The position numbers were made by a program, and so were the translations under genes. Positions 6,145 through 41,667 of a DNA stretch of 64,000 nucleotides are shown one piece after another. The notes under the pieces were generated by a model, which did not search any database, was not told where the DNA came from, and was given only the letters and a program-made list of their open reading frames with translations. Origin of the DNA: Acidaminococcus hominis (GTDB taxonomy: Bacteria; Bacillota; Negativicutes; Acidaminococcales; Acidaminococcaceae); assembly GCF_900291475.1 (NCBI RefSeq), contig NZ_OLMM01000005.1, positions 428,592-492,591 on the forward strand. The letters run 5' to 3'. The first letter of the stretch is position 1, and each line of letters starts with the position of its first letter.

Positions 6145-9100
6145 TTGTTAGACGTAAATAAATTTCATTCTATGCGTATCGGCTTGGCCTCTCCCGAAAA
6201 GATCAGATCTTGGTCCCACGGGGAAGTAACCAAACCGGAAACGATCAACTATAGAACCCTGAAACCGGAACGGGATGGTTTGTTCTGCGAACGGATTTTT
6301 GGACCTACCAAGGATTGGGAATGCCATTGCGGCAAGTACAAACGCATCCGTTATAAAGGGGTCGTCTGCGACAAATGCGGTGTAGAAGTTACTCGCTCCA
6401 AGGTCCGCCGCGATCGGATGGGCTCCATTGAACTGGCTGCTCCCGTATCCCATATCTGGTATTTCAAGGGAATTCCCTGCCGGATGGGCGCTATCCTGGA
6501 CATTGGCCAAAGAGCCCTGGAAAAAGTCCTGTACTTTGCCAGCTACATTGTCCTGGATCCGGGCGATACCAACCTGACCAAAAAACAACTGCTGACCGAA
6601 GCAGAATACCAGGATAAACTCAGTGAATACGGCCCTACCTTCCGGGTGGGCATGGGCGCAGAAGCCATTAAGGAACTGCTCCATGAAATCAACGTAGAAG
6701 AACTGACTAAGGAACTGCGGGCTGCCCTGAAAACGGAAACCAGCCTGCAAAAGAGAAGAAATATTGTCCGTCGGCTGGATGTATGCGAAGCTTTCCTGAA
6801 AAGCGGCAACAAACCCGAATGGATGATTATGGATGTAATTCCGGTTATTCCTCCTGACCTGCGTCCTATGGTTCAGCTGGACGGCGGCCGTTTTGCCACC
6901 TCCGACCTGAACGACCTGTACCGCCGGGTCATCAACCGGAACAACCGTCTGAAACGGCTGCAGGAATTGCAGGCTCCTGACATCATTGTCCGGAACGAAA
7001 AACGGATGCTGCAGGAAGCTGTAGATGCCCTGATCGATAACGGCCGCCGCGGCCGTGCCGTAACGGGCCCTGGCACCCGTCCTCTGAAATCTCTGTCCGA
7101 CATGCTGAAAGGCAAGCAGGGCCGTTTCCGTCAGAACCTGCTGGGTAAACGTGTTGACTATTCCGGCCGTAGCGTAATCGTAGTAGGCCCGGAAATGAAG
7201 ATGCACCAATGCGGTCTGCCGAAAGAAATGGCTTTGGAACTGTTCAAGCCCTTCGTAATGAAGCGCCTGGTTGAAAACGGTTCTGCCACCAACATCAAGA
7301 GTGCCAAGAGAATGGTGGAACGGGCTACCAACGTGGTTTGGGACGTTCTGGAAGACGTTATCAAAGAACATCCTGTACTGCTGAACCGTGCCCCGACCCT
7401 GCATAGACTGGGTATCCAGGCTTTCGAACCCATCTTGTCCGAAGGCCGCGCCATCAAACTGCATCCGTTGGTATGTACCCCGTACAACGCCGACTTCGAC
7501 GGTGACCAGATGGCTGTCCATCTGCCGCTGTCCGCAGAAGCCCAGGCTGAAGCCCGGGTACTGATGATGAGTGTCAACAACATCTTGGCTCCTACCAACG
7601 GAAAACCAATTACCGTTCCTACCCAGGATATGGTTTTGGGTGCCTATTACCTGACCATTTTCAAGGATGGCGCCAAGGGTGAAGGCCGCCGCTTCATCAG
7701 CTTTGACGAAGCTCGTCTGGCCTACTTCCATAAAGTCATTGATCTGCAGGCCCGGATCAAAGTCCGCGTGCCCAATGCAGAAATTTTCCCGGAAGCTTCC
7801 GACCAGGGCGAAAGCCTGGTAACCACTTCTGTGGGCAATATCATTTACAACTGCGAACTGCCGCTGGAAATGCGCTATTACTCCAAACAGGAAGATGGTA
7901 CCTGGCTGCTGGGTAAATTGATTGATAAGAAAGAACTGGGCCGCCTGGTGGCTAAAGCCCATAAGCTGTACGGCAACTTCGGGACTGCCCGGGTGCTGGA
8001 TATTGTCAAGAAACTGGGTTACGACAACGCTTGTAAATCCGGCTTGTCCATTGCTGCTTCCGATATTCAGATCCCGAAAGAAAAGGCTTCCATCCTGGCC
8101 GCTGCCGAAAAACAGGTTGATAAGGTGGAAACCCTCTTTAACCGCGGCTTGATGAGCCCGGATGAACGGTACCGCAAAGTTATCGCCCTGTGGGATAAGG
8201 CAACGGAAGATGTAGCCAACGCCCTGATGAAAAACACCATGGACGCCTTCAACCCGGTGTACATGATGGCCAACTCCGGTGCTCGTGGTAACATCCAGCA
8301 GATTCGTCAGCTGGCTGGTATGCGTGGTCTGATGGCTGACCCTTCCGGCCGGATCATCGACCGTCCTATCAAATCCAACTTCCGTGAAGGCCTGACCATT
8401 TTGGAATACTTCATCTCCACCCACGGTGCCCGTAAAGGTTTGGCCGATACGGCTCTGCGTACCGCCGACTCTGGTTACCTGACCCGTCGTCTGGTAGACG
8501 TGGCCCAGGACGTTATCGTCCGGGAAGATGACTGCGACGTTACCGGCATGAATCTGGTACGGGAACGCGCCCGCTTCTGCAAGGCCGTTCTGGGTTCCAG
8601 CCAGCACAAGCTGAAGGAATACGCCGTAGGCCGTACCCTGGCTTCCAGCGTGCTTAGCCCTGTGGATGGCTCCATTCTGGCAGAGGCCGATACGGTGGTA
8701 ACGGAAGACGTCTTTGACCGTCTCCTGGCTGCCCGGATTTTGGAAATCAGCCTGTATCCCCAGGATGAAGACAGCAACGAAGAACCTGAAACTCTGCAGA
8801 TCAACGTCAGCGAGGAAAAGGTGCAAGCTGCTTTCCGGGAACATATGACCCACCATTTCCTGAACAAGGAAGTGGAAGAAGATATCGAAACCGAGTCTGG
8901 GCTGGTACTGGCCCATGCTGGGGACAAGTTCACTGCCGATACCATTGAAGCCATCCTGGCTGACGGTACCGTCAAGGAACTGAAAATCCGCAACAACGAA
9001 GTGGATGGCGTGTACGTAGAAGCCATTACCTCCGGTAAGAATAAGAGCACGGTACTGGAATCCCTGCGGGATCGTCTGGTTGGCCGTGTCCTGGCCGAAG

Positions 9101-10176
9101 AAATCGTGGATACGGAAGGCAAAGTCCTGTACCATGTCAACGACTACATTACCGAAGATATGGCCGACGTAATTGCCGACCTGCGTGAAAAACACGGCGA
9201 CGGCCGGGTGAAGATCCGTTCCGTACTGACCTGTAAATCCCACTATGGCGTATGCCGGGCCTGCTACGGCCGTAACCTGGCTACTGCCAGAAAGGTGGAA
9301 GTGGGCGAAGCCGTTGGTACCATTGCCGCCCAGGCAATCGGTGAACCTGGTACGCAGCTGACCATGAGAACGTTCCACACCGGCGGTGTTGCTGGTGCTG
9401 ACGATATTACCCAGGGTCTTCCTCGTGTCGAAGAATTGTTCGAAGCCAGAAAACCGAAACATCCTGGTATCCTGTCCGAATCCGCCGGTGTGGTGGACAT
9501 TCAGGAAAAGGACGATGGCCGTTTCATCATCATCCAAAAGGAAGATGGCACGGAAGATACCTACCATATTCCTTATGGCGCCAAGATTCATGTGGCCGAA
9601 GGCGATACCGTCGAGGTGGGTGACCGCCTGACCGAAGGCTCCCTGAACCCCCACGATATCCTGCGTATTTCCGGTCCTGCCGCTACCCGTCACTACCTGG
9701 TACAACAGGTACTGGGCGTGTACAAGTCCCAGGGCGTAGAAATCAACGATAAGCACGTGGAAGTAATGGTTCGTCAGATGATGCGGAAATACCGCATTGA
9801 TGATGCCGGTGACACCAACATGCTGCCGGGCTCCATTGTGGACATTGCCCAATTCGAGGATGAAAACGATCAGGTCCTGGCTGAAGGCAAGGAACCGGCC
9901 AAGGCACATCCCATCCTGCTGGGTATCACCAAAGCCTCCCTGGCTACGGACTCCTTCCTGTCCGCTGCCTCCTTCCAGGAAACCACCAGAAACCTGACCG
10001 ATGCTGCCATCAAAGGCAAGGTTGATCCGCTGCTGGGCCTGAAAGAAAACGTCATCATCGGTAAGCTGATTCCTGCCGGAACCGGTATGCCGAAATATCG
10101 GAACATCGAACTGAAGCTCCATCGTCCTGCCGAAGCACAGGAAGAGGCTGCCCAGTCCGTTGAAACTGAAGAATAA
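6145..10176 (+). CDS. rpoC: DNA-directed RNA polymerase subunit beta'
   Basis: 1343 residues. The start is TTG 6145 ([23 protein letters not shown]), 8 bases after AAGGAG and identical in layout to the Bacillus TTG start; the GTG at 6139 is too close to the Shine-Dalgarno. Seen: the N-terminal zinc ribbon (CHCGKYK...CDKCG), the catalytic magnesium loop [16 protein letters not shown], the bridge-helix/trigger region ([22 protein letters not shown]), and the second zinc site ([13 protein letters not shown]). It forms the active enzyme with RpoB and is co-transcribed with it. Confidence 0.98.
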
Positions 10177-10187
10177 GAAGCACTTAG

Positions 10188-10509
10188 AGCAAGGGGCTGT
10201 GAAAAAATGGCTTGCGAATTCAAACTAGTTCGCAAGCCATTTTTATTGTTCGTTATAGCCGTATCTGTGTCTCAAAACTTCCTCAGTCAGCCCTACGTGC
10301 TGACAGCCCCTTCACGCTTGAATGGGCCGGTCTTAGACCTATACTAGTCATGTGCAAAACGGGTTTTGAGATAAAATTTAGGTATGTAAATACCTGCACC
10401 ACCCTTGTCTGTCACTTGACCAGTAGAGGTCTGGAACGCTTCCTGCAAGCGTGTAGGAAGTGTCGCCAAAGGCGACGATAGAAGTCTTATTTTTTCACAT
10501 CCCCTTGCT
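10188..10509. repeat. Structured 322-bp element with 21-bp inverted ends
   Basis: The two ends, 10188-10208 and 10489-10509, are inverted copies matching at 20 of 21 positions. The interior is packed with smaller inverted repeats: a perfect 12-bp hairpin at 10207-10240, CTCAAAAC...GTTTTGAG, GGTCTTAGACC, CGCTT...AAGCG, and TCGCCAAAGGCGA. An internal ACAGCCCCTT is also an inverse of part of the left end. No believable protein is encoded. It fills the gap between rpoC and the next gene and could be a MITE-like insertion or a structured intergenic repeat. Confidence 0.6.
10201..10245 (+). terminator. Terminator of rpoBC
   Basis: Perfect 12-bp stem (ATGGCTTGCGAA 10207-10218 / TTCGCAAGCCAT 10229-10240), extended by A-run/T-run pairing, with five T at the end. 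It lies within the structured 322-bp element. Confidence 0.85.
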
Positions 10510-29824: not shown

Positions 29825-29931
29825 GGTCAAGTCACCTTTACGGTGATGAGATCGAGTCACTTCGAGACAACGAAGTAAAAAAATCAAAGCTAGTATTTTC
29901 AAGAGCCAAGCGGCTTTTCAAAATAATTCTA

Positions 29932-31487
<1,556 letters not shown>

Positions 31488-31533
31488 TATGGAGAACCGT
31501 TGGGTACTACGGTACATCAACTATTCTCGTCGA

Positions 31534-31557
31534 CGCACATCTGTCAATATCAATATT
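31534..31557 (+). other. 16S precursor processing stem, 3' arm
   Basis: CGCACATCTGTCAATATC and following bases pair with 29803-29824 upstream of 16S. Confidence 0.85.
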
Positions 31558-31595
31558 CTGTTTTGAGGGTTCTGCCCTCAAGATGGTAAGGAAAT

Positions 31596-31672
<77 letters not shown>

Positions 31673-31696
31673 TATTTTCCTAAAGGAATGTATGCT

Positions 31697-31772
31697 GGGG
31701 GCGTAGCTCAGCTGGGAGAGCACCTGCCTTGCAAGCAGGGGGTCAGGAGTTCGATTCTCCTCGTCTCCACCA
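31697..31772 (+). tRNA. tRNA-Ala (TGC)
   Basis: 76 bases including an encoded CCA. Acceptor GGGGGCG pairs with CGTCTCC using G-T pairs; anticodon TGC at 31730-31732; T-loop AGTTCGATTCT. It lies 24 bases after tRNA-Ile. Confidence 0.97.
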
Positions 31773-31790
31773 ATTACTTACTATCGTATG

Positions 31791-31816
31791 AACCTTGAAA
31801 ACTTCATAGAAGAGAC
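31791..31816 (+). other. 23S precursor processing stem, 5' arm
   Basis: CTTGAAAACTTCAT...GAAGAGAC is complementary to 35145-35167 beyond 23S, so the two arms enclose 23S. Confidence 0.8.
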
Positions 31817-31985
31817 AAAAAACAGTTTTGATGAAAATCAAAATTAAATCTACTATGTATTGTGATGAATATGTAGTAGATACCTCTAATCTAAATGCGA
31901 ATTTAGAGACGAGTAACGAGAAAACTAGGAACACGTAAGTGTGACTTAGTAGAACTAGTTGTTTTCGTCAAGAATCGATTTTATT

Positions 31986-32195
31986 CAAGGAACGAGGAGC
32001 GTTTTGCCGCAGATAATACTACAAGGTATATCGAGGACAAAACACGACAAGTGACGCAGAAGAAAACGATTATCGGCGAAAACAGAAAGACTCCAACAAG
32101 ATTCGGGATAGTTCGCGAAGCGAGGAAGCAAATTTCCGGAGATAATACTAAAGTATATCGAGGAAAATTTGCGACGAGCGACAAAGAAATGGCCG
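31986..32195. repeat. Two diverged hairpin repeats in the 16S-23S spacer
   Basis: The 440-base stretch between tRNA-Ala and 23S holds two related units, about 31986-32085 and 32113-32195. Both read GAxCGAGGAxGC, then CAGATAATACTA or GAGATAATACTA, then TATATCGAGGA. Each can fold: in copy 1 GTTTTG pairs with CAAAAC, in copy 2 GCAAATTTCC pairs with GGAAAATTTGC, and both share an inner GATA/TATC stem. The compensating arm changes suggest the hairpin is kept, not the sequence. Confidence 0.55.
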
Positions 32196-32212
32196 AATAT
32201 TGCTAGGAGATA

Positions 32213-35117
<2,905 letters not shown>

Positions 35118-35144
35118 AAACCGTAAGTCCAAGAAGTAAAAAAC

Positions 35145-35167
35145 GTCTCTTCATGAAGTTTTGAAGG
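35145..35167 (+). other. 23S precursor processing stem, 3' arm
   Basis: GTCTCTTCATGAAGTTTTGA pairs with 31791-31816. Confidence 0.8.
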
Positions 35168-35187
35168 CTCATGCCTTCAATTGAAAA

Positions 35188-35304
35188 TCCGGTGGTTATG
35201 GCTGAAGGGATCCACCTGTTCCCATGCCGAACACAGTAGTTAAGCCTTCATACGCCGAAAGTACTCGACTGGAAACGGTCCGGGAGGATAGGAAGCTGCC
35301 GGTT
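35188..35304 (+). rRNA. rrf: 5S ribosomal RNA
   Basis: About 117 bases, TCCGGTGGTTATGGC to AGCTGCCGG, with the conserved CCCATGCCGAACACAG loop. The ends are estimated. Confidence 0.95.
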
Positions 35305-35421: not shown

Positions 35422-36333
35422 ATGGGGTATAAGTTTATGACCATTCTTCTCTTTTGTTTTTCCCTTTTGCCGTCGGCCTATTTGCGGTACTATCCTTTTC
35501 GGATTCTGGCCTCCAGGTCTGTGCGCCGATTTTTGCTCTGCGGCCATTTGATTATTTTCTTGTTGGAATTTGTACTGATTTCCGTTCTCTATAGTCAGGG
35601 GGTCCTGGTTTCCCGGACTCATACCTATCAGCAGTTGTATTTTATCAGCTACCTGCCCCATGTGCTGCTGCTGGTTTTCACCATCCGACCTTACTGGTTT
35701 CGGCATATCTTTGTTTTGGGGCTTCAGTCCATTTATATGCTGTTCATCCATACAGTGTCCATGGAGATCTATAAGTTGGGCTGGCCTGCCAAATGGGAAG
35801 CCCATGAGATGCTGGAATATTTTGGCCTCTATCTGTTTCTGTTCCTTTTGGGAATGCCCTTGATGCAGCGGCTGCTGGGACGGCTTTTCACCCGGAAACA
35901 GCTGCGGGTGCGGCCGGCCTATTGGTACTATTTGGGACCGGTGCCGCTGCTGCTGTGCTATTACCTGACCAATATGGATTACTACGATCTGCCCACAGAG
36001 GCTGTCACGCTTGTTTCCATCTATGTGTATACGCTTCTGAGCCGGGGCATTCTTCTTTTGGTGGCGGTGTGCCTGGTGGCGGCTGTCCGGAGTGGTATCC
36101 GGCACGCAGATCAGCTGCGGAGGCAGAAGGAAAAGAATGTGGTTCTCCAGGATCAGCTGGAGCAGCTCAATCTTTATGCGGCACTGCTCCAGAAGGAACA
36201 GCAAAAAATGGCTATTTTGCGCCATGATAGCCGGCACCAGCTGCGGCTTCTGGCCCAGCTGACAGAACAGGGCTATTTCGCGGAAGCAGAAAAACAACTG
36301 AAACAGCTGCAGAAAGAGGTAGAAGAACCATGA
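35422..36333 (+). CDS. Membrane histidine-kinase half: phospho-acceptor domain, no ATPase
   Basis: 303 residues from ATG 35422. About six or seven membrane segments cover residues 1-225, resembling the sensor part of AgrC/HPK10-type kinases. A coiled coil (about 230-262) leads to the dimerization/phospho-acceptor helix with LRHDSRHQLRLL (His268), the typical HPK10 H-box. The protein then stops at residue 303, right where the ATP-binding domain should begin; there is no N-box or G-box. It overlaps the next gene by 4 bases (ATGA). The neighbour supplies an ATPase domain but lacks the His, so the two may act as one kinase. No frameshift could join them, because each has its own membrane domain. 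Confidence 0.85.
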   Translation: MGYKFMTILLFCFSLLPSAYLRYYPFRILASRSVRRFLLCGHLIIFLLEFVLISVLYSQGVLVSRTHTYQQLYFISYLPHVLLLVFTIRPYWFRHIFVLGLQSIYMLFIHTVSMEIYKLGWPAKWEAHEMLEYFGLYLFLFLLGMPLMQRLLGRLFTRKQLRVRPAYWYYLGPVPLLLCYYLTNMDYYDLPTEAVTLVSIYVYTLLSRGILLLVAVCLVAAVRSGIRHADQLRRQKEKNVVLQDQLEQLNLYAALLQKEQQKMAILRHDSRHQLRLLAQLTEQGYFAEAEKQLKQLQKEVEEP

Positions 36334-37688
36334 GCTCTTTTTTCGCTACCCTGGGTATTACTACATTCTTCCTTATACTGGTTCAGCCTTTTGCTTTACT
36401 CCATTTTTTGCCCTTCCGGCAATTTCTGCCCGCTCAGCAGCAAAAGCTGCTTTGGCGGGGTTGGTGGGGGCTGGTGCTCTTGGAAGCGGCAGGCTTTACC
36501 CTGCTGCAGCAGCAGGGTATTTTTGAAGATTCCCAGACCAGTTATTGGGTCCTCCGGGACTGCTCCTGGCTTCCTCAGGTTTTGCTGTGTCTGGGGTTTA
36601 CCAGCCGCTTTTGGATTGGCCAGCTGTATGTGTTTGCCTTCCGGATCCTGTTTTCCGGTATTCTGTTTACCCTAAGCCAGGGACTTAGCCAGGAATTTTT
36701 TCCCCTTTTGGCAACTTCCCAGCGAGCAGGGCAGCAGACCCTCTTGTACGGTTTTCTGTCCCTATTGGCCTTTCCCTTTTTGCTGCGGTTCTTTACCCAG
36801 GTGTTCAGCCATTTTTCCCAGGCTGCTACCCGGCGGTACTGGCGGTATATTACCCTGATTCCGGTGCTGCTGGCCGTGGAAAGCCTGTACGTGAGTCTGT
36901 ACGACTTTGTGCTGCCGGGGGTCTTTGATTTGCTGCTGCCCCGGTTCTTCCTGCTGGTGATTGCGGTGCTTCTCCTGGCGTCCATCCGCACTAGCCAGGA
37001 GGAGGTCTATCAGGGCATCCAAATCTTTGAAAAGAATCACCAGCTGCAGCAGCAGTTTACTTCCACGGAAAATTACATTCGGTTGGCCCAGGAATCCCGG
37101 CAGCGCATGGAGGCTCTCTACCAGGAAAAACGGGAGCTTTTGGCCTATTTGCTGGAGCGGGTCCAGCAAAAGGACCGGGATGGGGTTCTGCACTGCATCG
37201 ATAAACTGGGAGAACGCTTCAATACCACCAAACTGCCCCAGTATTGCCAGAATCCCGTAATCAATGCAGCGCTGACGGTATATTTTGCCAAAGCCCGGGA
37301 ATGGGGAATCCCGGTAACCATTGCAGCGGACCTGCCTCCAGGACTGGAATGCAGTGTGGATCTGTCCATTGTCCTGTCCAACCTGGTAGAGAATGCCCTT
37401 TTGGCCAGCCAGAAGCAGCCAAGGGAAAAGCGGAACATTACGGTACTGGCCCTGCACCAGGCTGGGGTGCTGAACATTTTGGTGAAGAATCTGTTCGATG
37501 CACCTGTGGAATTGGACGAAAACGGTCTGCCGGTGACCCATGTGAAGGGCCATGGGATTGGCATGAAATCCTTGGTTCGGTTCCGGGACAAGTACGGGGC
37601 CAGCATCCTGTGCCAACAGAAAGATGGCTGGTTTCAGACCTACCTGCAAGTAGCTGCCCAAACCCAAACAGGGGGTGAAGACGGTTAA
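36330..37688 (+). CDS. Membrane histidine-kinase half: ATPase domain, no acceptor histidine
   Basis: 452 residues with about seven membrane segments (1-220), a coiled coil, an HPK10-like dimerization helix and a complete ATPase domain: N-box LSNLVENALLAS, G-box GHGIGMKSL, plus the family sequence YCQNPVINAAL. At the place of the usual RHDxRHH it reads MEALYQEKRELLAYL: the phospho-acceptor histidine is missing. It overlaps the upstream half-kinase by 4 bases, implying coupled translation and equal amounts. Its stop overlaps that of the convergent LytTR regulator. Confidence 0.85.
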   Translation: MSSFFATLGITTFFLILVQPFALLHFLPFRQFLPAQQQKLLWRGWWGLVLLEAAGFTLLQQQGIFEDSQTSYWVLRDCSWLPQVLLCLGFTSRFWIGQLYVFAFRILFSGILFTLSQGLSQEFFPLLATSQRAGQQTLLYGFLSLLAFPFLLRFFTQVFSHFSQAATRRYWRYITLIPVLLAVESLYVSLYDFVLPGVFDLLLPRFFLLVIAVLLLASIRTSQEEVYQGIQIFEKNHQLQQQFTSTENYIRLAQESRQRMEALYQEKRELLAYLLERVQQKDRDGVLHCIDKLGERFNTTKLPQYCQNPVINAALTVYFAKAREWGIPVTIAADLPPGLECSVDLSIVLSNLVENALLASQKQPREKRNITVLALHQAGVLNILVKNLFDAPVELDENGLPVTHVKGHGIGMKSLVRFRDKYGASILCQQKDGWFQTYLQVAAQTQTGGEDG

Positions 37689-38410
37689 AGGTCAAACATA
37701 AACTGGAAATACTGTTCCTGAAAATCCCGATATTTGCGTTTCCCCAGGGGAATCTGGTGGCCCTGGATTTCCACATATTCAGCCTTGATCAAGTGGATGG
37801 CGGCCAGGTTTACCAGGTAACCCTTGGTGGGGGAAAGAAACTGTCCCGGGGCGATTTTATCCAGGTCGGCCTTCATTTCCTGGCCGGACTTCCGGGTTTC
37901 CAGGGTACTGCCGTCGGCCAGATAGACTTCCATAACGTGGCCATGGTTTTCCAGAAAAAGAATTTGGGCGATTTCTTCTACCCGGATTCCTCCGCCTACC
38001 AGCCGAAAGATGATTTTGGCGCTGCTGCGCTGCCGGATATAGCTTACGGCCCGGTCCAGGGCTTTGTTGAATTGGGCCTGGGTAAAGGGTTTCAGCAGAT
38101 AATCCGTGGCCTTTACGGCAAAAGCGTCTACGGCAAATTCGTCGCTGGTGGTCAGGAAGATGATTTCCGCCTGGCTGTGTTTTTCCCGGAGGGCACGGGC
38201 CACCTCGGTGCCCAGAATGCCCGGCATGCACACATCCAGCAGGACGATATCGAACGGGCACCCCTGGCTGATGGCATCGATAAAGGCGAAGCCATCGGTA
38301 TAGGTCCGGTATTCCACGGTTTCTTTTTTGTTTTGGAAGTAGATTTCCGCAGCGGCCTGAATCATTTGTACTTGATCCGGCAAATCGTCGCAGATAGCAA
38401 TGTGCAGCAT
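37685..38410 (-). CDS. LytTR-family response regulator
   Basis: 241 residues from ATG 38410 (ggagaggtg upstream). Receiver domain about 1-120 with acidic pair D8-D9, phospho-acceptor Asp59 (IVLLDVCMPG), the Thr of LTTSDEF, and Lys107 (LLKPF). The LytTR DNA-binding domain follows (about 140-241: 'IRVEEIAQILFLENHGHVMEVYL' in part, 'FLSPTKGYLVNLAAIHLI'). HPK10 kinases normally signal to LytTR regulators, so this is the probable partner of the two half-kinases although it is on the opposite strand, converging and overlapping stops by 4 bases. Confidence 0.92.
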   Translation of the reverse strand: MLHIAICDDLPDQVQMIQAAAEIYFQNKKETVEYRTYTDGFAFIDAISQGCPFDIVLLDVCMPGILGTEVARALREKHSQAEIIFLTTSDEFAVDAFAVKATDYLLKPFTQAQFNKALDRAVSYIRQRSSAKIIFRLVGGGIRVEEIAQILFLENHGHVMEVYLADGSTLETRKSGQEMKADLDKIAPGQFLSPTKGYLVNLAAIHLIKAEYVEIQGHQIPLGKRKYRDFQEQYFQFMFDL

Positions 38411-38452
38411 CCTGCACCTCTCCTTTCCGTAACCTGTTAGCTTGTTAATTCT

Positions 38453-38458
38453 ATTATA
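38453..38458 (-). promoter_or_regulatory. Extended -10 element for the LytTR regulator gene
   Basis: Minus-strand TGTGTATAAT (TATAAT at 38458-38453), about 45 bases before the gene. No good -35 box. Confidence 0.45.
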
Positions 38459-38481
38459 CACAAATACAAACGCTTTCTGAG

Positions 38482-38511
38482 AAAACCGTCCTAAACAGGC
38501 GGTTTTTTTTC
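38482..38511 (+). terminator. Terminator-like hairpin between regulator and adhesin genes
   Basis: AAAACCG / CGGTTTT with eight T on the plus strand. It could insulate the adhesin gene from transcription reading through from the kinase genes. Confidence 0.5.
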
Positions 38512-38676: not shown

Positions 38677-41667
38677 ATGAACAGGATCTATCAGGTCATT
38701 TGGAATCGGGCACGGGGAATGTATATGGTGGTGTCCGAACTGGCTAAAAGCCGGTCCAAGGGCAGCGGGGCCGGGGGTAAACGGAGCAAACTGTTCCAGC
38801 CCGCAGCGGTTCTGGCTGTACTGCTGACCTTTGGCGTAGGAGGAAACGCCTGGGCAGCCGTCACTATAGGGACAACAGATCCAGGAGTCTCGGCCACCGT
38901 GTATACCACCGATGAAGTGTACACCAAGATTGAAGTGAATGCAGAACTGGAGAAAAAAGCAGATCTTAATACGGACGGGAAAGTTGCTGCTGCTGTCAAA
39001 GCGGACACTGCGGATATCGCTACCAATGCCACTAACGATGGCAATGGAAAAAATATTGCAGATACCTATGCTACCCAGGAAAGTGTAAATGCGGCATTGG
39101 AAAAAAAGGCAGATGTTAATGAGGACGGGAAAGTTGACGCTGCTGTCAAAGCGGATACCGCCACTACGGCAACCAATGCCACCAATGCCACCAACGATGG
39201 AGAGGGAAACAACATTGCAGCTACCTATGCCACCAAGACGGCACTGGCGGGTAAGCAGGACAAGATTGCAGATTCTCTGACGATTGATGGTGCTACTGGG
39301 TCAACCATTATCAATAACAATACTATAAAAGTTCAAGATGATGTTAACACCTGGCATTCCACTACCATCACCAGTAGTTCCATTGATTTTGGCAGCGGCG
39401 CTACTACCATTAGTGAAGACTTTATTGGAACGACCAGCCTCTCTGCCAGTAAACTCACAATGGATACGGAATCGAATCCATCGATTACACTATACTATCA
39501 GAGAGGAAACTATACTACTACCATTGATGCAACGCAAATAAAAACTTCTACCCTCACCGGCACCTCCGGGGTTAATGACGGCAGCCTTAAAGCCGGCACT
39601 TACGTTGCGACCACAAGTACCGTAGGCCAGAACCTGAATGCCCTGGATACCGCAGTGGGGAACGAGAAAACCGCCCGCATCGCTGCTGATACTGCCCTGG
39701 CCGGTGCCGTAAATGGCGGGATGGTCATTGGCAGTGACAATGTCCTAATGAAAAACAGCACTGCTGTCAATGCAGAAACTGGCGCAGTGACCAATAGCCA
39801 AACGGCAGTGGATACCCTGATTATCAACCAAGGAAAGGATAACCAGGTGACCATTGATGAACACGGCATCAAGGTGGGTACGAACAGCTCCCTGATGGAT
39901 GACGACGGTATTTATACCGGCGGCGATTCCTACAACGACGCCAAAGCAGCCCTTAAAGCCACCGGGGAAATCAAAGGGGCGGACGGCAAATTCACGGTAG
40001 ATGCCGAGGGCAGCCTGACCGCAGTTTCTGGTACCATCGGTACAGTGAATGTAGCAACTGACGGTACGGTGACCGGTGTCAAAGACCTTACGGCCAGCGG
40101 CACCCTAACCAGCGGAGACACCAATTCCAGCAACTATACGACCATTAGCGCGGGCAGTACCCACTCCGAAAATGAGAAGATTGATAGCGGCACGCTTTAT
40201 ACCAGCGAAGCCACTTTTGATGAAAAGGGCAGCACCGTAAAGGTGAAAGATGACATAGCCAAAGGCTCCAGTACGTTGACCGCGGGACAACTGGAAAATG
40301 TCGTCAGCAGCAACGATGAGAAGACGAAATCCACCTTCCGGCAAACCACGGGTCAGATTTTGGCGGAGGTGACAGCTGGCACCAATACAACCAGCAGTAC
40401 CCAGACCGCGCAGGATATTACCAATCAGGCAGCCACTGGTACCATCACCAATAACGCCAAGAACCTGGTGAATACAGCTGCCGATGGCATTACGCATACG
40501 GCTGGTACGAGCATCCTGGACGTGGTAGGGAATACGACGGTGACTACGACTACAGAGGGTACGACTTTTGAAAACACAGGTCACAGCACGGCTTTGGAAG
40601 GCGGTTCGCTTACGAAGACGACGATTTCCGGGAATACCCTCCAAACGGGCAAAGCAACCATGGACTATGCGGAGGTCATGAAAGACCTGGGGGTCCGGGG
40701 CAGTGCCGCCATCGACCAGAACCTGACAGTAAAAGGTGCTTCGGACTTGCAAGGCAGCGTTACGGTAGGCAAAGAGCTGGAGGTGAAAGGCAATACCAAG
40801 CTGGACGGTACCTTGGAAGTGGCCCAAGCAGCTTCCTTCAAGGATATCGTCACGCTGGAAAAAGACCTGAAGGTGGGCGGCAATGCTTCCATAGCCGGCG
40901 AAGTATCGGCCAGTTCCTATAAGATTGGGGACAAGACCTACATTGACAAGAACGGCATCAACGCCAATGACCAGAAAATCACCAATGTGGCACCGGGAGA
41001 ACTGGCCCCGGACAGCAAGGATGCGGTAAACGGCAGCCAGCTGTATAGCACTAACCAGCGAGTGGACAGGCTGGACAGCCGGGTGGACAAGGTGGGGGCC
41101 AGCGCAGCGGCCCTGGCTAACCTCCATCCCCTGGATTTCGATGAAGACTCCAAAGTCAGCGTGGCCGCCGCGGTAGGGAACTATGGCAGCGCAGCCGCCG
41201 GTGCCCTGGGCGTATTCTACCGGCCTACTGACCGGGTAATGCTTAATGTCTCTTCCAGTTTTGGCAATGGCGAAAACCTGGTAGGCGGCGGGGTAACCTT
41301 TAAACTGGGCCGGAGCAGCAAACGGCTGGAGCAGGCTGAAAATACCAATGCCGCTTTGGCGAAACAGGTGAATGAACTCCAGGCACGGCTGGACGCTCTC
41401 TTGGGGGCACTGAATCCCCATATGAGCAGGGAATTTCCGGATGTGCCGGCCAACCATTGGGCTTATGAGGCGGTCAGTAAACTGGCCGAGAAAGGTATCC
41501 TCAAAGGGGAGGCAGACGGCAAATATCATGGTGACCGGACCCTGACCCGCTACGAAATGGCGGAAATCATCTATAACGCCCTGAGCAAAGGGGCCAAGGC
41601 CGAAGTCAAACTGGTGCAGGAATTCCGGCCGGAACTCCAGGCCCTGGCGGCTAAGAGACAGGCGTAA
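38677..41667 (+). CDS. Trimeric autotransporter adhesin with C-terminal SLH domain
   Basis: 996 residues. Residues 1-60: long signal peptide with ESPR-type start (MNRIYQVIWNRARGMYMVVS), cleavage near AWA-AV. About 87-190: two related about 52-residue repeats with 'EKKADxNxDGKV', 'NDGxGxNIA' and 'TYAT'. About 200-730: low-complexity Thr/Ser/Asn/Gly beta-rich passenger. About 760-810: neck with 'KITNVAPGEL..DSKDAVNGSQLY'. About 812-872: YadA-type membrane anchor (HPLDFDEDSKVSVAAAVGNYG). After this comes a coiled coil (about 873-905) and an SLH domain (about 915-970: FPDVPANHWAYEAVSKLAEKG). Adhesin on the cell surface; the SLH would sit in the periplasm and grip peptidoglycan. Confidence 0.92.
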   Translation: MNRIYQVIWNRARGMYMVVSELAKSRSKGSGAGGKRSKLFQPAAVLAVLLTFGVGGNAWAAVTIGTTDPGVSATVYTTDEVYTKIEVNAELEKKADLNTDGKVAAAVKADTADIATNATNDGNGKNIADTYATQESVNAALEKKADVNEDGKVDAAVKADTATTATNATNATNDGEGNNIAATYATKTALAGKQDKIADSLTIDGATGSTIINNNTIKVQDDVNTWHSTTITSSSIDFGSGATTISEDFIGTTSLSASKLTMDTESNPSITLYYQRGNYTTTIDATQIKTSTLTGTSGVNDGSLKAGTYVATTSTVGQNLNALDTAVGNEKTARIAADTALAGAVNGGMVIGSDNVLMKNSTAVNAETGAVTNSQTAVDTLIINQGKDNQVTIDEHGIKVGTNSSLMDDDGIYTGGDSYNDAKAALKATGEIKGADGKFTVDAEGSLTAVSGTIGTVNVATDGTVTGVKDLTASGTLTSGDTNSSNYTTISAGSTHSENEKIDSGTLYTSEATFDEKGSTVKVKDDIAKGSSTLTAGQLENVVSSNDEKTKSTFRQTTGQILAEVTAGTNTTSSTQTAQDITNQAATGTITNNAKNLVNTAADGITHTAGTSILDVVGNTTVTTTTEGTTFENTGHSTALEGGSLTKTTISGNTLQTGKATMDYAEVMKDLGVRGSAAIDQNLTVKGASDLQGSVTVGKELEVKGNTKLDGTLEVAQAASFKDIVTLEKDLKVGGNASIAGEVSASSYKIGDKTYIDKNGINANDQKITNVAPGELAPDSKDAVNGSQLYSTNQRVDRLDSRVDKVGASAAALANLHPLDFDEDSKVSVAAAVGNYGSAAAGALGVFYRPTDRVMLNVSSSFGNGENLVGGGVTFKLGRSSKRLEQAENTNAALAKQVNELQARLDALLGALNPHMSREFPDVPANHWAYEAVSKLAEKGILKGEADGKYHGDRTLTRYEMAEIIYNALSKGAKAEVKLVQEFRPELQALAAKRQA

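Follow-up and report, generated by a model that had tools for sequence, protein, structure and literature searches.

Histidine kinases are taught as homodimers, and AgrC is one complete homodimeric protein; ComE-like response regulators belong to the LytTR family. The kinase-like proteins RetS/GacS, RocA/CovS and DivL pair with or modulate kinases, or do without the acceptor histidine; they are modulatory and are not known to divide acceptor and ATPase between partners, unlike the locus described here. In group A Streptococcus, FasB and FasC, described in 2025, are adjacent six-transmembrane kinase-like proteins with a ComE-like regulator (PMC12675982). His246 of FasC is essential and the FasC kinase domain dispensable, FasB supplies the kinase domain, FasC cut after its DHp (residues 1-286) still works, and two-hybrid assays gave a FasB-FasC heterodimer and no homodimers; its authors leave room for phosphorylation on FasB too (PMC12675982). 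The split CheA of Rhodobacter sphaeroides, CheA3/CheA4, has been characterised biochemically and shows that an acceptor and an engine on two proteins can work; modelling predicts that output becomes ultrasensitive or bistable when the free acceptor protein doubles as phosphatase (PMC3591291). Hik36/Hik43 of Synechocystis, a kinase split over two genes, are both required for the phenotype (PMC7656254). None of the open-access papers listed in our searches presented a split kinase of Negativicutes.

The window, the whole 64,000-nucleotide stretch of Acidaminococcus hominis DNA that was analysed, carries two adjacent genes, P1 and P2, for predicted membrane proteins. An earlier note on this DNA had read them as halves of one obligate kinase and had known of no well-described system of this kind. 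The latter statement does not hold: since FasBC (PMC12675982) and split CheA3/CheA4 (PMC3591291) exist, a P1-P2 kinase is not categorically new. What is new here, as judged from sequence, is the complete loss on both sides, its recurrence, the role reversal and the micro-DHp form. The features of the locus are as follows.

35422..36333, forward strand: P1, 303 aa (ORF); predicted membrane sensor and complete DHp phospho-acceptor, no ATPase
36208..36330, forward strand: P1 DHp region; H-box ILRHDSRHQLR, His268 codon at 36223-36225
36330..36333, forward strand: ATGA, 4 bases shared by the P1 stop and the P2 start (ORFs)
36330..37688, forward strand: P2, 452 aa (ORF); predicted membrane sensor, His-less pseudo-DHp and intact GHKL ATPase
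37122..37124, forward strand: P2 acceptor position, Gln265 rather than His (alignments)
37380..37400, forward strand: P2 N-box NLVENAL (sequence and alignment)
37545..37565, forward strand: P2 G-box KGHGIGM (sequence and alignment)
37685..38410, reverse strand: response regulator, receiver and LytTR domains; convergent with P2 and overlapping it by 4 bases
38484..38509, forward strand: terminator-like hairpin and T-run beyond the regulator start (script call in the window; 6 of 6 aligned loci)
38677..41667, forward strand: trimeric autotransporter adhesin, divergent, a candidate target (Pfam: ESPR, YadA stalk and anchor, SLH)

An rRNA operon (16S, two tRNAs, 23S, 5S) lies at 29931-35304, directly upstream of P1, which starts about 118 bases 3' of the 5S rRNA gene.

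Two complementary halves

As the earlier note had it, P1 carries the H-box histidine and stops before an ATPase would begin: RHDSRH is present, 36 residues follow its His268, and a Pfam search returned no ATPase and indeed no significant match at all. P1 is best regarded as a sensor-kinase relative, an identity that rests on homology to complete kinases. Its AlphaFold2 model (mean pLDDT 67.0, pTM 0.44) has a helix at 198-282 and a second at 286-301, after which the chain ends; because nothing follows this hairpin, P1 is predicted to end at the end of the DHp, with helix 2. The description of P2 was likewise borne out. Residues 343-439 match HATPase_c_5/GHKL (PF14501, E 2.3e-10), the N-box and G-box are intact, and the column aligned with the phospho-acceptor histidine of complete relatives holds Gln265. 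The P2 model (mean pLDDT 69.5, pTM 0.41) shows the same hairpin, 198-279 and 283-296, followed by an ATPase fold; the solved structure that Foldseek ranks first against it is 6e52, the cytoplasmic kinase of AgrC (E 3.2e-8). Both models are of low confidence and place several long helices at the N-terminus. A GHKL kinase has its histidine and its ATPase in one polypeptide, and neither P1 nor P2 combines the two.

P1 and P2 probably form an obligate heteromeric kinase: P2 would phosphorylate His268 of P1 and so feed the LytTR regulator. Its origin would lie in a complete multi-pass AgrC-like GHKL kinase that was duplicated in tandem, each copy then losing the part that the other retained. Translational coupling at the ATGA overlap, whose 4 bases the ORFs confirm as previously noted, would yield similar amounts of the two proteins. 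The intact DHp helices of P1 may pair with the His-less ones of P2 in a mixed four-helix bundle, within which the P2 ATPase would phosphorylate His268 in trans; the phosphate would then pass from P1 to the convergent LytTR regulator, whose target is perhaps the neighbouring trimeric autotransporter adhesin. Because a P1-P1 dimer would have no engine and a P2-P2 dimer no acceptor, output would require both receptors, and the pair could behave as an AND gate that responds to two ligands.

The locus resembles FasBC in having two adjacent membrane kinase-like genes and one LytTR regulator, here linked by gene neighbourhood, and in placing the acceptor histidine in one subunit and the ATPase in the other, here read from sequence motifs. 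By analogy, the FasBC work supports phosphorylation of P1 by P2, pairing of their DHp helices and transfer from P1 to the regulator. The systems differ in that FasC retains a kinase domain whereas P1 has lost its ATPase, that FasB retains two histidines in its DHp region whereas the acceptor of P2 has been replaced, and that the regulator is co-transcribed in FasBC and convergent in the P1-P2 locus. With CheA3/CheA4 the pair shares the placement of acceptor histidine and ATPase on two proteins, which in the split CheA function only together. Those, however, are cytoplasmic chemotaxis kinases with P1/P5 domains, without membrane sensors of their own or a DHp of the AgrC kind, and Pfam detected neither the HPt (the CheA P1 domain) nor the CheW-like P5 domain in either of our proteins. 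Hik36/Hik43 differs as well, being a split cheA homologue (PMC7656254). To AgrC-type GHKL kinases the locus is linked by the P2 ATPase domain, the match of the P2 model to 6e52 and the LytTR partner.

Conservation of the pair and its neighbours

The same arrangement is found in nine loci, hereafter the window clade: six of nine Acidaminococcus genomes, the window included, and three of the Mitsuokella genus. P1, P2 and a close regulator match occur together in six of the nine Acidaminococcus-genus genomes, and none of them occurs in the other three. Throughout the clade, P1 precedes and adjoins P2, and the acceptor histidine is present in all nine P1 proteins, each with RHDSRH, versus none of the nine P2 proteins, where the acceptor column holds Gln in the window and either Arg or Glu in the remaining eight loci. 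The histidine of P1 is followed by 36 residues in eight loci, including the window, and by 42 in one. The gap between the genes is -4 in eight loci; in the ninth (genome G001, locus L046), where P2 is frame-broken, 132 bases separate P1 from the homologous start of P2. Among the six Acidaminococcus genomes, two (G001 and G005) have frame breaks in P2, which is read there as separate pieces; these breaks reflect either assembly errors or real loss. The pieces lie at 8814-10295 and 8950-9468 in L046 and at 7211-7714 and 7302-8558 in L048.

Across six sequence pairs, whole-gene dN/dS was 0.21-0.29 for P1 and 0.13-0.28 for P2, the mark of purifying selection. By region, the six comparisons gave 0.12-0.38 for the P1 DHp, 0.09-0.24 for the P2 CA and 0.08-0.71 for the P2 pseudo-DHp, the last being below 0.35 in four comparisons and 0.51 and 0.71 in the other two. 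Conservation of both halves in relatives, which the earlier note had asked about, is therefore evident: the complementary losses are not due to chance, since they are the same in all nine loci and dN/dS is below 0.3 for both genes in all six pairs. The frame breaks in two of the six Acidaminococcus P2 genes could be taken as a sign that a duplicated kinase is decaying or that an assembly error has split one gene. Such an origin is highly improbable given the nearly identical P1 end and the same P2 loss in nine loci of two orders, together with the low whole-gene dN/dS. Nor are P1 and P2 fragments of one gene, because each contains a full sensor. We also considered, and set aside, a programmed frameshift that would join P1 to P2, as the gap varies in other pairs and P2 brings its own sensor.

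Two further readings place the chemistry elsewhere. P1 or P2 might be a pseudokinase that modulates another kinase, in the manner of RetS-GacS or RocA-CovS, so that the pair would not be the source of phosphate; modulators of this type are documented (PMC12675982; DivL, PMC4211667). We regard this as quite improbable here, given the complementary losses and adjacent partners in nine of nine loci, the co-inheritance of the regulator with the pair, and the absence from the window genome of any further sequence matching P1 or P2 at E 1e-3. Alternatively, P2 might autophosphorylate on a shifted histidine, five residues past the lost one. This is the sole candidate for an acceptor in P2, a point on which the earlier note had staked its interpretation, and +5 is indeed His in six other unbroken aligned P2 proteins of the window clade. 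The position is Leu in the window P2, however, sits about 140 degrees round the helix and holds other residues in the Selenomonadaceae P2 rows inspected, leaving autophosphorylation there barely credible.

A single-sequence P1 query had no match in 28 other genomes of the family, and a profile search there recovered complete single kinases in three genomes (G072, G075 and G079; loci L140, L137 and L130) and a weaker P1-profile match in a fourth (G069). Among named genomes, P1 alone found no relative; an alignment of six P1 sequences found six loci, in A. massiliensis, A. fermentans, an uncultured Acidaminococcus member, Mitsuokella multacida, M. jalaludinii and a "Selenomonadaceae bacterium" of the same genus code. 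The P1 proteins of the three Mitsuokella-genus genomes (L058, L060 and L061) are 48-51% identical to that of the window, versus 44-57% within Acidaminococcus, which hints at a transfer between gut genera of two orders.

The adjacent LytTR regulator of the earlier note was recovered at 37685-38410 on the opposite strand, with Pfam matches to Response_reg (4.3e-17) and LytTR (2.5e-6) in a search run on a longer ORF reaching 38461; the start adopted here was set by the conserved MLHIAICDD. The regulator is convergent downstream of the pair in five of the six Acidaminococcus loci and all three Mitsuokella-genus loci, and in the sixth Acidaminococcus it lies on another contig. The hairpin and T-run at 38484..38509 are a possible end of the P1-P2 transcript, which may thus cross the whole regulator gene as antisense (window 37685-38509; also L047-L050 and L060). 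Among 24 pairs with an opposing downstream regulator, our script called a terminator-like site at the P2/regulator junction in none and terminator-like hairpins beyond the regulator in five, counts that start from the longest ORF and miss some window-clade hairpins visible in the alignment. The adhesin adjoins the regulator in six of the eight loci searched (five Acidaminococcus and the Selenomonadaceae genome) and is absent there in the two named Mitsuokella loci. A search of the regulator-adhesin spacer with a consensus for LytTR binding sites gave no conserved match. The SLH domain of the adhesin is placed after the anchor, at the C-terminus.

Paired kinases across Negativicutes

Profiles of P1 and P2 matched 103 and 142, respectively, of 380 genomes of the class. 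The survey comprised 130 loci (10 plus 120 taken among the matches listed) rather than every match, and many of the genomes are drafts; 173 kinase ORFs of 270-530 aa were classified by acceptor column, N-box and G-box. An earlier classification of 110 loci with a stricter H-box gave a slightly different result, and all counts here are those of the 130 loci. For many genomes, "Selenomonadaceae" denotes a family code (f15) shared with named Mitsuokella records.

The ORFs included 43 adjacent same-strand kinase pairs, 36 of which divided acceptor histidine and ATPase between their two members. The split was strict in 31 (His without detectable ATPase versus ATPase without His), although within these the ATPase member was contig-cut in two (L119, L183) and frame-broken in three (L046, L048, L133). 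In the remaining five, the His-bearing member retained a decayed ATPase (L107, L165) or a near-intact one (L166, L177, L191). Seven pairs were exceptions to the complementary rule. The ATPase member kept its histidine beside a partner with a decayed ATPase in L156 (NHN) and L159 (RHD); one member of L174 had both histidine and ATPase and the other neither, being also cut; both members of L171 had the histidine and damaged ATPase motifs. Neither member had an acceptor in L173 (2390-4980) and L198 (2909-5577), pairs that may be decayed or served by a third protein. Both members were complete kinases only in L201 (40-2894), a possible unsplit stage. Gaps in most pairs outside the window clade ranged from -13 to +4, with outliers of -208 and -151 in two pairs whose second ORF is over-long and +26 in L201.

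Complete kinases, whose presence among relatives the earlier note had tied to decay, do exist, but as solitary genes: they account for 69 of the 87 ORFs that lack an intact neighbour of similar size, and a single pair of the 43 was doubly complete. Neither of the refuting conditions named in the earlier note, complete relatives or another acceptor in P2, is borne out. Since many relatives show the complementary split, some of them with exchanged roles, the locus has the look of a two-part sensor that evolved as such rather than of decay. The claim of an obligate two-protein kinase is thus well supported by comparison, through complementary loss, adjacency and swapped roles elsewhere; as a rule for such pairs it is weakened by the seven exceptions. 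The near-intact ATPase of three His-bearing members, the frame breaks in two P2 genes and the two higher dN/dS values of the P2 pseudo-DHp also count against it.

Seven more of the 87 ORFs were broken or cut, or had a partner that was broken, cut or over-long (L105, L106, L160, L175, L180, L185 and L215). The other 11 were His-less kinases, ten with intact ATPase motifs and one (L208) with GHVLGM, each beside a micro-DHp protein. These 11 small proteins consist of one hydrophobic stretch, about 35 residues and then a whole DHp hairpin, and measure about 100-120 residues when counted from the conserved start (the ORFs of L200 and L207, as given, start further upstream). A profile of nine of them matched 13 of the 380 genomes, in four genus codes, at E below 1e-36. 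Since RHDLRH (in the motif RHDLRHHYR) is present in 11 of 11 beside His-less kinases, the micro-DHp keeps exactly the acceptor that its neighbour is missing.

The micro-DHp partners resemble stand-alone phosphotransfer proteins, and in this respect they favour an arrangement of separate homodimers, in which P2 would act purely as a kinase and P1 as a phosphotransfer protein of the membrane, phosphate passing between complexes with no mixed DHp bundle. Transient docking is also how CheA3/CheA4 works (PMC3591291). We nonetheless judge separate homodimers unlikely for P1 and P2: the whole pseudo-DHp hairpin is kept in P2, with four of the six comparisons giving dN/dS below 0.35, and would be needless in this form for a lone kinase, and FasB and FasC gave a hetero- but no homodimer signal (PMC12675982). 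The heteromeric kinase remains our preferred reading.

In a sample of the phylum, 11 of 398 genomes matched, eight of them in Negativicutes; the three matches outside the class sit in long open frames of 478, 482 and 752 aa.

Evolution of the split and its meaning

Trees were built from the sensor region, which omits the role-defining columns. In a quick-search tree, from which 10 of the 173 ORFs were dropped (four contig-cut, six broken or with doubtful ends), a branch with SH-aLRT 99 separated the window-clade pairs from the Selenomonadaceae pairs. Near the window clade lie pairs of family f7 (L105-L107), whose His member has a decayed ATPase where readable. A more careful search used 90 rows: 73 were paired genes, the partner being in some cases a micro-DHp, broken or cut, and 17 were singles selected by us. 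The 30 downstream genes all grouped in a single clade (99/96; 100% of 200 bootstrap trees); among the paired rows the tree required one change of gene position and four changes of role. A single origin of the His carriers in Selenomonadaceae (28 His versus 36 ATPase carriers) was rejected with p-AU 5.7e-11; roles were assigned before the tree was built, and this AU-type test was picked after the tree had been seen.

Because the tree sorts by position and not by role, one Selenomonadaceae tandem duplication was resolved in opposite directions. In some Selenomonadaceae lineages the His member lies upstream and the engine downstream; other lineages have the opposite order. Provided that a lost ATPase is never regained, the four single-role parts of the downstream clade (bar unclassified rows) imply at least four separate resolutions, and the window clade would, on the same premise, represent one further resolution beyond those four. 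The number could be smaller if neighbouring tandem copies have undergone gene conversion, with which the poorly supported ATPase-domain tree is compatible. On balance, we lean towards the view that tandem GHKL kinases of Negativicutes have repeatedly become obligate heteromers, in both directions and in a micro-DHp form, as an evolved two-part and often two-receptor, AND-gated class.

Complete kinases, half-decayed pairs and full splits in both directions make up a natural series, together with a minimal acceptor protein. With this series the evolution of obligate heteromers becomes testable, as does the question of whether a sensor can run on phosphorylation between subunits alone. Split kinases also offer parts for two-input signalling, and they carry a warning for annotation: many kinases labelled "truncated" or "His-less" may be halves of working enzymes.
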